This document shows positions 17,119-27,691 of a stretch of DNA of 43,795 nt, in pieces; within the stretch, counting starts at the first letter, position 1, and each line of letters starts with the position of its first letter. The notes under the pieces were generated by a model, which did no database searches, was not told the origin of the DNA, and was given only the letters and a program-made list of their open reading frames with translations. Made by a program: the position numbers and the translations under genes. This DNA is from Desulfovibrio sp. Its GTDB lineage: Bacteria; Desulfobacterota; Desulfovibrionia; Desulfovibrionales; Desulfovibrionaceae. The DNA lies in contig JAISRC010000081.1 of assembly GCA_031273845.1 (NCBI GenBank), positions 1 through 43,795 on the forward strand. Direction: 5' to 3'.

Positions 17119-17625
17119 ATGCGTATAATAATTGCACTGTGCCTGATGCTGTTTCTGCTTGCTTATCCCGCCTGTGCCTGGGAGGCCCGCGTCGTGAGTG
17201 TCGCCGACGGCGACACGATCACTGTGGAGCCGGAGCGGGGCGGGGATCGCGTCAAGATCAGGCTGCACGGCATTGACGCGCCGGAGCGCAAGCAGCCCTA
17301 TGGACAGTCCGCGCGCGGTTTTGTCCACAATGTTTCGCTGTATAAACGTGTCGAAATCGACACAAAGGTGAAGGACAGATACGGGCGTACCGTGGCCGTA
17401 GTCACGGTTCCGGGCGGCGTGTTGCAGGAGATGCTGCTTGACGCCGGGCTGGCCTGGGTATACCCGCAATACTGTAAGGATACGTTTTGCGGCGCATGGG
17501 AGCGTAAGCAGTCCGTTGCCCGCAAGGCGCGCAAGGGCTTGTGGGCGGACCCTGATCCCGTCCCGCCGTGGGAATGGCGGCGGGCAAAGAAAAATAACCA
17601 ACAACAGCGTATCGCGGAGGAATGA
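17119..17625 (+). CDS. Secreted thermonuclease-family nuclease (SNase-like)
   Basis: 168 residues with an N-terminal signal peptide (MRIIIALCLMLFLLAYPACA, cleavage near CAWEA). The SNase/TNase fold signature is clear: ARVVSVADGDTITVE, IRLHGIDAPERKQPYG, with the catalytic Arg and Glu of the family, and KVKDRYGRTVAVV with the second catalytic Arg. It should degrade DNA and RNA in a Ca2+-dependent manner outside the cytoplasm. It is on the plus strand against the flow of the late and middle genes and is coupled to the next gene, so it looks like a moron: a cargo gene expressed from the lysogen. Close homologues are common in plasmids and phages. Confidence 0.88.
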   Translation: MRIIIALCLMLFLLAYPACAWEARVVSVADGDTITVEPERGGDRVKIRLHGIDAPERKQPYGQSARGFVHNVSLYKRVEIDTKVKDRYGRTVAVVTVPGGVLQEMLLDAGLAWVYPQYCKDTFCGAWERKQSVARKARKGLWADPDPVPPWEWRRAKKNNQQQRIAEE

Positions 17626-17626
17626 C

Positions 17627-18136
17627 ATGAAAAAATTTCTAATGTGTTTGTCAGCGTTGTTTTTATGCCTTTTTATCGTTGCAGATAGCGCATACGCAAA
17701 AGATTTCGGCATAACGTGGCAAGATTTTATTACAGTGTGGAACAAGCGCAAACTGGATGATGTACCGCTACTTGACATTAAGAAATCGCAAAATGTAGGT
17801 GGCAACATTACTATACAAGCCGGAAAATTTTTTGTTACATTAGTTTGTGAAAATAATAAAATAAAGCAGTTGGGAATAGCGCAAACTCTATCGGACGATA
17901 GCACAGCTATAATGGATGCACTATTTGCATATGCGTATGCAGTTGGGCTGTTGGTTGATTTTAACAGCGAAAAGACAAAGTATGCTTTTAAAGATTTAGG
18001 CTTATTTGAAATGGCGAACAGAGATGATATTGGTAGATATAATAGAAAATTGCTGTTGGAAATTGATAACATGAACTTTGGTGTTATTGTGCAAGGAAAG
18101 ATTATCATGTTTACCCTACAATATAGTACAGGGTAA
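17627..18136 (+). CDS. AT-rich secreted protein of unknown function paired with the nuclease
   Basis: 169 residues; the ATG at 17627 follows the nuclease stop by one base, with GGAGG seven bases upstream. A signal peptide is evident (KKFLMCLSALFLCLFIVADSAYA). The mature part is soluble, with DFGITWQDFITVWNKRKLDD, AGKFFVTLVCENNKIKQLGIAQ and FNSEKTKYAFKDLGLF; I do not recognise a family. Base composition is strikingly AT-rich with AAA/ATA codons, unlike the GC-rich neighbours, which suggests recent transfer. A strong terminator follows. Its place in an operon with a secreted nuclease suggests a partner or inhibitor; this is only inference. Confidence 0.75.
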   Translation: MKKFLMCLSALFLCLFIVADSAYAKDFGITWQDFITVWNKRKLDDVPLLDIKKSQNVGGNITIQAGKFFVTLVCENNKIKQLGIAQTLSDDSTAIMDALFAYAYAVGLLVDFNSEKTKYAFKDLGLFEMANRDDIGRYNRKLLLEIDNMNFGVIVQGKIIMFTLQYSTG

Positions 18137-18163
18137 ACTAGGTTTAGAGGAATTGCACAGAGG

Positions 18164-18190
18164 AAGCCCCGCCCCTGCGGGGCTTTTTTT
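18164..18190 (+). terminator. Rho-independent terminator of the nuclease operon
   Basis: AAGCCCCGC (18164-18172), loop CCCT, GCGGGGCTT (18177-18185) and then a run of T to 18190. It ends the plus-strand nuclease/AT-rich gene pair and insulates it from the C4/Rha unit. Confidence 0.92.
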
Positions 18191-18196
18191 GCGCCC

Positions 18197-18225
18197 TTGA
18201 CATTTTTTAAGGGCAAGGTTAGCGT
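18197..18225 (+). promoter_or_regulatory. Candidate promoter of the C4-rha leader transcript
   Basis: A perfect -35 box TTGACA lies at 18197-18202. Seventeen bases on is TAGCGT, a poor -10 match. It is the only convincing -35 between the upstream terminator and the C4 RNA, and it is placed so that one transcript would carry target 1, C4, target 2 and rha, as in P1. The weak -10 keeps confidence low. Confidence 0.35.
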
Positions 18226-18237
18226 GGCCTTGTCGGT

Positions 18238-18255
18238 GCTGAAAACACCAACTGG
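18238..18255 (+). promoter_or_regulatory. Upstream target site of the C4 antisense RNA
   Basis: GCTGAAAACACCAACTGG is complementary to 17 of 18 bases of CCAGTTGCTGTTTTCAGC at 18377-18394 inside the C4 RNA. In phage P1 the C4 RNA pairs with a similar upstream target in its own leader, and in P4 the CI RNA (seqB) pairs with seqA. The site lies before C4 in the same transcript. Confidence 0.7.
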
Positions 18256-18323
18256 CGGCCGCGCCAACCCGAAAGCATTGGCTTTCTTTTTGCCCTTCGA
18301 CCGAGGGGGAAATTCTGTCTTTG

Positions 18324-18404
18324 CTTGCCGGGCGTGGGTGAAATAGAATACCCGTGAGGGGAAATAGCCCGCAGCTCCAGTTGCTGTTTTCAGCGCCCGG
18401 CAGG
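18324..18404 (+). ncRNA. C4-type antisense RNA
   Basis: A multi-branched fold closed by an 11-bp stem: CTTGCCGGGCG (18324-18334) with CGCCCGGCAGG (18394-18404), one G-U pair. Inside are GGGT/ACCC (18336-18339 with 18350-18353), a small GGG/CCC hairpin in the segment GAGGGGAAATAGCCC, and a single-stranded-like antisense region CCAGTTGCTGTTTTCAGC. The conserved block GTGGGTGAAATAGAATACCC followed by GTGAGGGGAAATAGCC is what I recall of the phage C4 antisense RNA family (P1/P7 C4). Its antisense region is complementary to sites at 18238-18255 and 18433-18450. It should repress the downstream rha gene by pairing with its leader. Confidence 0.85.
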
Positions 18405-18432
18405 CTCCGTTGTGGAGCTTGTCAAAACCGGC

Positions 18433-18452
18433 CCTGAAAAGGCCAACTGGAG
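18433..18452 (+). promoter_or_regulatory. Downstream C4 target overlapping the rha ribosome-binding site
   Basis: CCTGAAAAGGCCAACTGG (18433-18450) matches the complement of the C4 antisense segment in two blocks, CTGAAAA and CAACTGG, with a mismatched centre. The last bases lead directly into TGGAG (18448-18452), the Shine-Dalgarno sequence of rha eight bases before its ATG. Pairing by C4 would hide the RBS. Confidence 0.65.
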
Positions 18453-18459
18453 TTATACC

Positions 18460-19101
18460 ATGAATAGCCTTACTTCCCCTGTTTCCATCGTTTCCGGCAA
18501 CAATACCATCACTCACACATTGAACGGTCAGCCTGCGGTATCCAGCAAGGATATCGCCCTGCGTTTTCAGAAGAAGCACAAGGACATTTTGCGGGACATT
18601 GAACGGATTCGCCTTACTGTCCCAAAGGCTTTTCATGGGCGCAATTTTGCGCCCATGATCACGGAAGTCGAAATAGGCAAAGGAGCAACCCGTCAAGATC
18701 CGGCTTTCCTCCTTACCCGTGACGCCTTCAGCCTTTTGGCAATGGGGTTCACCGGCAAGGCGGCAATCCTCTGGAAACTCAAGTATATCGAAGCATTCAA
18801 CGCCCTTGAGCGGGCAGCTCTGGAAAATCTGAGCGGACAGGTTATTGAGGCCCGCCGCCGGATCTCCGAGGTGGAGGCCGGCGCGGAGCAGGCCCGACGG
18901 GCGGCCCGCGCCGAGGGCGCGCGGATTGCCTACCGCCTCACGCCGGCAAGACGCCGCCGCATGCACCGGGCGGTCTATTGGCGCAACAGGGGCCTGGGCA
19001 TCCAGAGCGTTGCAAAACTGCTCGACATGCACGGCAGGGAAGCCGCAAGCCTTCTGAAAGCCGCCGCGTTGATCGGCCTTACGGAACAAGGGGCCGCGTA
19101 A
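18460..19101 (+). CDS. Rha-family phage regulatory protein
   Basis: 213 residues from ATG 18460 (GGAG RBS). The pRha domain covers about residues 20-110: TLNGQPAVSSKDIALRFQKKH, DILRDIERI, FLLTRDAFSLLAMGFTGKAA and LWKLKYIEAFNALE are hallmark segments. The C-terminal half is a helical extension (VIEARRRISEVEAGAEQARRA) ending in a helix-turn-helix-like segment (GIQSVAKLLDMHGREAASLLKAA). Rha proteins act in phage regulation or antirepression in P22-, P4- and phi80-like phages. Here the gene is preceded by a C4 antisense RNA leader, the same logic as P1 ant. Placing it inside a Mu-like prophage adds a second, RNA-based control unit beside the CI-type repressor. Confidence 0.88.
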   Translation: MNSLTSPVSIVSGNNTITHTLNGQPAVSSKDIALRFQKKHKDILRDIERIRLTVPKAFHGRNFAPMITEVEIGKGATRQDPAFLLTRDAFSLLAMGFTGKAAILWKLKYIEAFNALERAALENLSGQVIEARRRISEVEAGAEQARRAARAEGARIAYRLTPARRRRMHRAVYWRNRGLGIQSVAKLLDMHGREAASLLKAAALIGLTEQGAA

Positions 19102-20017: not shown

Positions 20018-20073
20018 ACAGAGTTCTCCATATTATTGGCTGCTCATCAGTACCGGGCAACCACGCCCGGCAG

Positions 20074-20091
20074 ACCGCCCTGCAGGGCGGT
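20074..20091. terminator. Perfect GC-rich palindrome between HU and the small helical gene (possible terminator)
   Basis: ACCGCCC-TGCA-GGGCGGT is a perfect 7-bp stem with a four-base loop in the 81-base gap downstream of the HU gene. No clear T-run follows on either strand (TTTCGCTTTC on plus), so it may attenuate rather than fully terminate, or protect the mRNA end. Confidence 0.4.
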
Positions 20092-20098
20092 TTCGCTT

Positions 20099-26899: not shown

Positions 26900-27691
26900 G
26901 TGCAGGCCATGAAGACTATCTCAGAGCGCATCCTCGCCGTAAGAGGGAAGATGAAGCAAGCCGATTTTGCTACAAAAATCGGCATCAATCCCAATACATT
27001 AAGGAGCTATGAGAGCGCGAGAGCTATTCCAAATCATGACGTCTTGCAAAAGGTCTGCGTCAATTTTTCAGTAAACCCAGAATGGCTATTGATGGGGACT
27101 GGCCCTATATTCACCACGGACAAGGTTGCCATATCCCGTGCTACAGCGGGAAACCTGCGCGCCGGTGACCCCATAGCGTACTATGAAGCGGTGCAGCCTG
27201 AAGACAGAACGGCTGGAAAAAAGTCTTTTATATCAACAACAAGTCACACCGGCATCGAAACTGTGGCCACAGACACACATGAACTAGTTCTTATCCCTCT
27301 GGCCGAATCAGTTGTAAGCGCCGGACATGGCAGTCTGGAAGTTACAGACCAGCACAAACAATATGCGTTTCGTTATGATTTTCTAAAAAGAAAAGGGAAT
27401 ATCAATACTATGGTATTGATGCGTGTTGCAGGTGACAGCATGTCCCCCGCAATCGACAACGGCGACCTTGTTTTAATTGACCAAAGCCAGAAACAGCTTG
27501 CTTCTGATAAGATTTTTGCGCTGGCTATTGAAGATTTAGTTTACCTGAAGACAATAAATGCTATTCCCGGTAAGATAATTTTATCGAGCTTCAATCCTGT
27601 GTACCCGCCTTTCGAGGTGGATACCAGAGAGCAGTTGTCAGACTTGGTAACGATTATAGGCCGGGCGATATGGATCTGTCGGGAATTGTGA
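26900..27691 (+). CDS. CI/LexA-type prophage repressor (HTH + S24 domain)
   Basis: 263 residues from GTG 26900, or 260 from ATG 26909 (MKTISERILAVRGKM); both RBSs are weak. An XRE-type HTH is at the N-terminus: QADFATKIGINPNTLRSYES, followed by VCVNFSVNPEWLLMGTGP. The C-terminal half is a LexA/CI S24 peptidase-like domain with MRVAGDSMSPAIDNGDLVLID, where GDSM carries the nucleophile Ser; the catalytic Lys should lie in the following FALAIEDLVYLKTINA segment. Mu's own repressor lacks this domain, so this phage may be induced by RecA-driven cleavage, as in lambdoid phages. It diverges from the early operon. Confidence 0.9.
   Translation: MQAMKTISERILAVRGKMKQADFATKIGINPNTLRSYESARAIPNHDVLQKVCVNFSVNPEWLLMGTGPIFTTDKVAISRATAGNLRAGDPIAYYEAVQPEDRTAGKKSFISTTSHTGIETVATDTHELVLIPLAESVVSAGHGSLEVTDQHKQYAFRYDFLKRKGNINTMVLMRVAGDSMSPAIDNGDLVLIDQSQKQLASDKIFALAIEDLVYLKTINAIPGKIILSSFNPVYPPFEVDTREQLSDLVTIIGRAIWICREL

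Follow-up and report, generated by a model that had tools for sequence, protein, structure and literature searches.

How is an rha gene controlled in a prophage that already encodes a repressor protein, and does an RNA in its leader take part? This question is raised by a window of 43,795 nucleotides (the whole stretch of DNA analysed here) from Desulfovibrio sp., contig JAISRC010000081.1 of assembly GCA_031273845.1. The window is a Mu-like prophage, in which transposition proteins A and B, the late activator, terminase, portal, head protease, tail sheath and baseplate are all encoded on the minus strand, and the rha locus lies on the plus strand between the early and late genes. An earlier note, made from the sequence alone, had described a Mu-like prophage with a CI/LexA-type repressor, and the present analysis bore this out (Table 1). 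The repressor is presumed to be the protein layer of immunity, against which Rha could act, and the hypothesis is that a protein layer and an RNA layer together give dual immunity or cross-talk. The product of rha matched the Pfam family Rha/Phage_pRha with an E-value of 9e-22 (77.9 bits; cut-off 29.9) and phrog_518 with 9.5e-27, and in this prophage it would function as an antirepressor. Two further features were observed in the vicinity. The early region of the prophage contains a type II hammerhead ribozyme (20034-20098, minus strand, 76.1 bits, E 2.6e-14). Just 5' of the rha locus lies an AT-rich plus-strand island (17119-18136) with an SNase-like ORF (17119-17625) and an unknown ORF (17438-18136); it ends in the terminator-like hairpin at 18171 and looks like cargo.

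Table 1. Features of the rha leader and its protein context; positions are those of the window.
Feature	Position	Strand	Remark
Intrinsic-terminator-like hairpin GCCCCTGCGGGGC TTTTTTT	18171-18190	+	Divides the rha locus from the plus-strand ORF 5' of it
Perfect -35 hexamer TTGACA	18197-18202	+	About 40 nt 5' of target 1
Upstream target (target 1): a1 GTGCTGAAAACA, b1 CAACTGG	18236-18255	+	Complements RNA linker and hairpin-2 loop
Terminator-like hairpin GAAAGC-ATTG-GCTTTC-TTTTT	18271-18291	+	Between target 1 and antisense RNA
sRNA-Xcc1-type antisense RNA, branched	18326-18410	+	RF02221 match; covariation in 19 relatives
Closing stem P1 of antisense RNA	18326-18335 with 18393-18402	+	
Hairpin 1 of antisense RNA		+	Conserved core AATANAANACC...GGGGAA
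Hairpin 2 of antisense RNA	18371-18387	+	
Antisense block b' CTCCAGTTG	18375-18383	+	Hairpin-2 loop plus edges
Antisense block a' TTTTCAGC	18387-18394	+	Linker from hairpin 2 to 3' strand of stem P1
Downstream target: a2 CTGAAAA (18434-18440), b2 CAACTGGAG (18444-18452)	18434-18452	+	
rha, Phage_pRha / Rha-like antirepressor-type regulator, 213 aa	18460-19101	+	Pfam PF09669, phrog_518
CI/LexA-type repressor (HTH and Peptidase_S24)	26900-27691	+	phrog_4 9e-43, Peptidase_S24 1e-18

The 280-nt rha leader folds far better than its shuffled versions (z -5.4). Within it, the reverse complement of 18377-18394 recurs in 17 of 18 positions at 18238-18255 and in 14 of 18 at 18433-18450, the downstream match consisting of two blocks, CTGAAAA and CAACTGGAG, with three bases between them. 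Searching the whole window on both strands, these two sites were the best matches to the segment apart from the segment itself, which confirms the pairing that the earlier note had claimed between this segment, an upstream site and two downstream blocks running into the rha ribosome-binding site. The duplex energies, which the note had asked for, were -41.9 kcal/mol with the upstream and -32.6 kcal/mol with the downstream target, so that the a2-b2 pairing is the weaker of the two, and none of 1000 dinucleotide shuffles of either target equalled these values. The block b2 includes the rha Shine-Dalgarno sequence GGAG, located 7 nt 5' of the ATG at 18460. When the whole assembly was scanned with the pattern CTGAAAANNNCAACTGG, matches without mismatch were found at only three places, all in the rha locus; elsewhere in the genome, the search for trans targets returned 0 sites at 0 mismatches, 1 at one and 12 at two, matching the reversed-pattern control. 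A promoter at the TTGACA hexamer is only a guess, since the promoter scan gave no full match and no confident -10 box near it.

The segment that pairs with both sites belongs to a branched RNA, as the earlier note had proposed, and the branched fold and the a/b topology of C4 were both found; the assignment to the C4 family was not upheld. The Rfam C4 model (RF01695) returned nothing at E<=10 on 18100-18520, to the letter the outcome that the note had counted against its claim, and the control search on phage P1 gave 68.8 bits; membership of the C4 family was therefore rejected. The models c4-a1b1 (RF03163) and isrK (RF01394), tried for the upstream arm, likewise matched P1 and found nothing in the window at E<=10. 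Instead, the RNA matched sRNA-Xcc1 (RF02221) over its full length (model positions 1-87) with 52.8 bits and an E-value of 9.2e-9, which is 0.2 bits below the gathering cut-off of 53. Conversely, phage P1 C4 was matched neither by RF02221 nor by a model built here from RF02221 relatives. The sRNA-Xcc1 and C4 scaffolds therefore differ. Rfam places C4 and c4-a1b1 in one clan and sRNA-Xcc1 in none. The training set of our R1 model includes the window, and RF02221 serves as the independent test for the window. In 19 relatives, 92.9% of the stem cells were paired, compared with 81.0% in shuffles, and the stem covariation score was 0.363 compared with 0.149, a value reached by none of 500 shuffles. 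Relatives that share the layout of flanking targets matched RF02221 and no other Rfam family, and a search for DNA relatives of the leader itself among phage and plasmid records found none. The window RNA is therefore placed with sRNA-Xcc1, though its RF02221 score lies just under the cut-off. The functional claim of C4 logic survives this reassignment, since that logic is displayed by sRNA-Xcc1 at the level of the whole family.

This family-wide behaviour was assessed with RF02221 searches of 395 genomes of the window's phylum and 398 genomes of a group including Proteobacteria, together with prophage contigs found by the core motif, rha relatives, named phages and one plasmid. The model matched in 58 of the 398 sampled genomes of the group including Proteobacteria and in 92 of 288 Desulfovibrionaceae-level relatives; members were found partly by core motif and partly by Rfam, and these prevalences hold for the sampled genomes and this model. 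Each RNA was scored by its hairpin-2 loop and linker against its flanks, taken as 140 nt on the upstream and 70 nt on the downstream side. Over 77 dereplicated RNAs, the mean two-block score was 25.6 upstream and 21.7 downstream on the RNA's own flanks and 18.2 and 16.2 on the flanks of the others, and none of 10000 permutations reached the observed own-flank means. The window's own downstream flank scored 31.2, with all 76 other flanks lower (maximum 21.6), and an independent single-block test gave the same outcome. The sites share a common layout of block a, a spacer usually of 2-7 nt and block b, and they lie at about -50 to -130 upstream and at or just 5' of a start codon downstream. The median distance from the downstream site to the start codon was 7 nt, a value that is conditional, since ORFs were chosen near the predicted site; about 19 of the 77 members had no ORF of the required kind close 3' of the site. 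Separately, one genome (G927, L288-L291) contains runs in which two or three sRNA-Xcc1-type RNAs follow one another in tandem at distances of about 110-430 nt; mostly, only the last RNA of a run combines strong targets on both flanks with an ORF downstream. These runs are reminiscent of the five-RNA sRNA-Xcc1 array of Xylella (PMC12189769), and the additional copies could be leftover or stacked immunity RNAs.

The genes that follow the family members are mostly phage antirepressors wherever a domain is recognised. Among 59 next genes, Rha was found in 14, KilA-N in 10, Bro-N in 9, P22_AR_C in 6, AntA in 3 and SymE in 2, counts in which domains may co-occur in one protein, and many of these genes match PHROG anti-repressor families. 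An antirepressor is annotated directly 3' of the RNA in phages Aaphi23, Rac-SA53, Pmp3, IFTN1, P27 and ST2-8624; the corresponding gene is a KilA-N gene in Acinetobacter phage 4316 and hypothetical in Mcat15 and the N. vulgaris plasmid. In the Stx-converting phages P27 and ST2-8624 (L177, L287), the family member lies 5' of an AntA/AntB antirepressor, and of 5426 complete E. coli genomes, 181 contain a copy that is at least 90% identical. Other successors were also seen. Small unknown proteins of about 70 aa, with no recognised antirepressor, follow the RNA in Desulfovibrionaceae prophages (L031, L032, L291). At four loci (L033, L041, L042, L277), the next ORF resembles, by eye, the N-terminus of a CI-type HTH repressor rather than an antirepressor, and the ribosome-binding region is less clearly inside the site. 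Moreover, six SymE genes in three genomes have the RNA just upstream (L210, L212, L216). At five of these genes, the start of symE is directly adjoined by a two-block site of fair strength or, at the least, by a strong b2, and the sixth (L210 12258) has a weak downstream site. This adjacency agrees with the published placement of sRNA-Xcc1 upstream of symE in Xanthomonas integrons (PMC12444791).

Antisense and target segments were also found to change in concert. In 42 locus pairs with downstream proteins of 60% identity or more and with differing antisense segments, the RNA's own downstream pairing exceeded cross-pairing in both directions in 39, and the own upstream pairing did so in 28, the 42 pairs not being mutually independent. 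The near-identical loci L101 and L108 differ in all three segments together. Among loci related to the window, block a is a constant CTGAAAA and block b varies, being CAACTGG in the window, CCTCGG in a member of the same genus (L279), CCCATGG in L062 and CACAAGG in L003, and each b is matched at both flanks. Heteroimmune variants of a C4-type system would be expected to look like this, and P1 and P7 differ in a like manner (PMC5320573). These data bear on two other explanations. In principle, local duplication and inversion, or chance, might have produced three related segments within 220 nt that have no regulatory role. The shuffles and the permutations over 77 loci speak against this, as do the concerted three-way changes in related loci and the fixed position at start codons, and we regard it as so improbable that it can be set aside. 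The second explanation follows the literature, in which sRNA-Xcc1 and its Xylella relatives are read as trans-acting, virulence-linked sRNAs with predicted bacterial and plant targets (PMC2996969, PMC12189769), and would make the neighbouring matches incidental. However, the loop and linker vary from member to member and track their own two flanking sites each time, the published targets are predictions, and full matches in this genome occur at the rha locus only; a role primarily in host-gene regulation is thus very unlikely.

On this evidence, the rha leader is very probably a C4-type RNA switch built on an sRNA-Xcc1 scaffold, in which an antisense RNA would block ribosome entry on rha. A single transcript would begin 5' of target 1 and would carry, in order, a1-b1, a terminator-like hairpin, the branched RNA of about 85 nt, the target a2-b2 at the ribosome-binding site of rha, and finally rha itself. 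Processing would free the branched RNA, or it would accumulate as a discrete RNA; the hairpin-2 loop (b') and the linker (a') would then pair with b2 and a2, and ribosome entry would be prevented. If the a2-b2 pairing blocks rha in this way, the lysogen would make Rha only while the antisense RNA is in short supply or titrated away. A separate RNA would not strictly be needed, because the minimum-energy fold of the unprocessed leader already pairs 18371-18394 with the rha ribosome-binding site directly, in cis.

That fold also suits a purely cis-acting leader switch, in which a1-b1, the branched segment and a2-b2 are alternative partners (sequestrator and anti-sequestrator) and no free RNA is formed. 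The terminator-like hairpin that separates target 1 from the RNA would also fit an attenuator, and at the Gifsy IsrK locus the long transcript is itself translationally inactive (PMC4825925). Against such a switch, relatives of the RNA accumulate as discrete molecules with ends that fit the covariance model: Xanthomonas sRNA-Xcc1 is 88 nt long with ends mapped by RACE (PMC2996969), and that of E. coli O157 EDL933 is 89 nt long, represented by 40293 reads in one data set and 25609 in another, with hardly any ribosome footprints (PMC5331693). All seven Xylella members were detected as transcripts (PMC12189769). Furthermore, conservation and covariation are seen in the closing stem and in hairpin 1, neither of which a simple sequestering pair would require, and P1 C4, which has the same topology, is a processed trans-acting RNA (PMC5320573). 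A switch acting in cis alone is therefore considered unlikely, and the published data on other members support a discrete RNA of about 88-89 nt, as would be expected of the C4-type switch proposed for rha.

The upstream arm would have its own part in this C4-type switch. A terminator-like hairpin occurs within 100 nt 5' of the RNA in 42 of 77 members, where 7.0 were expected from shuffles in this laxer search, and a strict terminator search (loop of at most 9) gave 24 of 68 with 5.5 expected. Phage P1 has an equivalent hairpin after b1, in a stretch that the Rfam isrK model matches weakly. In Salmonella Gifsy-1, IsrK, a short RNA that ends at a terminator, switches on translation of the antirepressor transcript made by read-through, and the authors of that work liken the IsrK locus to seqA/CI of P4 (PMC4825925). 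Because of the hairpin, its P1 equivalent and the IsrK precedent, target 1 is likely a decoy or feedback element rather than a second regulated gene. With its own terminator, the a1-b1 arm may be a natural decoy that, as a short RNA, soaks up the antisense RNA as in Gifsy IsrK; alternatively, antisense RNA bound to a1-b1 may cause early termination, as in P4 CI/seqA.

The class of mechanism is already known; what is new, as far as the searched literature shows, is the recognition of sRNA-Xcc1 as a C4-type family, and priority is not certain. No link between sRNA-Xcc1 and C4 was found in the searched papers that name sRNA-Xcc1, and an earlier link may exist. We consider it probable that sRNA-Xcc1 represents a second, structurally distinct C4-type family, that is, a cassette of a1-b1, terminator, RNA and a2-b2 that phages, islands and integrons carry before antirepressors and SymE-type toxins. 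The founding RNA of the Xanthomonas integron would accordingly be a repressor of the neighbouring symE and not primarily a trans-acting virulence or plant-targeting RNA. If this is true, a family named for Xanthomonas, deemed virulence-linked and lately suggested to act on plant mRNAs serves mainly as a device of phage immunity. Since the predicted target of each RNA sits in its own flanks, it would become possible to predict and test directly which targets hundreds of unassigned sRNAs have and into which heteroimmunity groups the prophages fall. In addition, a use of the same cassette as the RNA half of a toxin module is suggested by the SymE cases.

C4-type control is known mainly from P1/P7, P4 and enterobacterial relatives. 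With sRNA-Xcc1, the window RNA shares the closing stem, the hairpin 1 core, hairpin 2 and the full-length model match; Rfam and the literature found assign no phage-immunity role to that family, whereas its members are read here as C4-type regulators of neighbouring genes. With C4 of P1 and P7, judged from the annotated sites and sequence of P1, it shares the three-way junction, b' in the hairpin-2 loop and a' in the following linker. The a-then-b targets on both sides, b2 at the ribosome-binding site and the antirepressor gene downstream are also common to both, as is the hairpin after b1 (CCGCAG...TTGCGGTATTTTT in P1). However, C4 has a short UUCG hairpin as its hairpin 1, which in the window is longer and contains a conserved internal motif; the spacing between a2 and b2 is 22 nt in P1 and 3 nt in the window; and icd precedes ant in P1, whereas rha follows directly here. 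The logic of P1 C4 and P4 CI that the earlier note had seen in this leader thus holds for the two flanking two-block targets and the P1-like topology, but not for the scaffold of the RNA. The IsrK/STnc1160/orf45-anrP locus of Gifsy-1 offers a similar arrangement of short terminated leader RNA, read-through transcript, complementary downstream segment and downstream antirepressor gene (PMC4825925). There the short leader RNA activates translation via orf45; no such small ORF is established in the window, and an activator role is only suggested. Finally, the CI RNA of P4 pairs, with seqA and seqC, with one site 5' and one site 3' of itself, as the window RNA does (PMC4825925), but it causes premature transcription termination of the replication genes, whereas the downstream site of the window lies on a ribosome-binding site.
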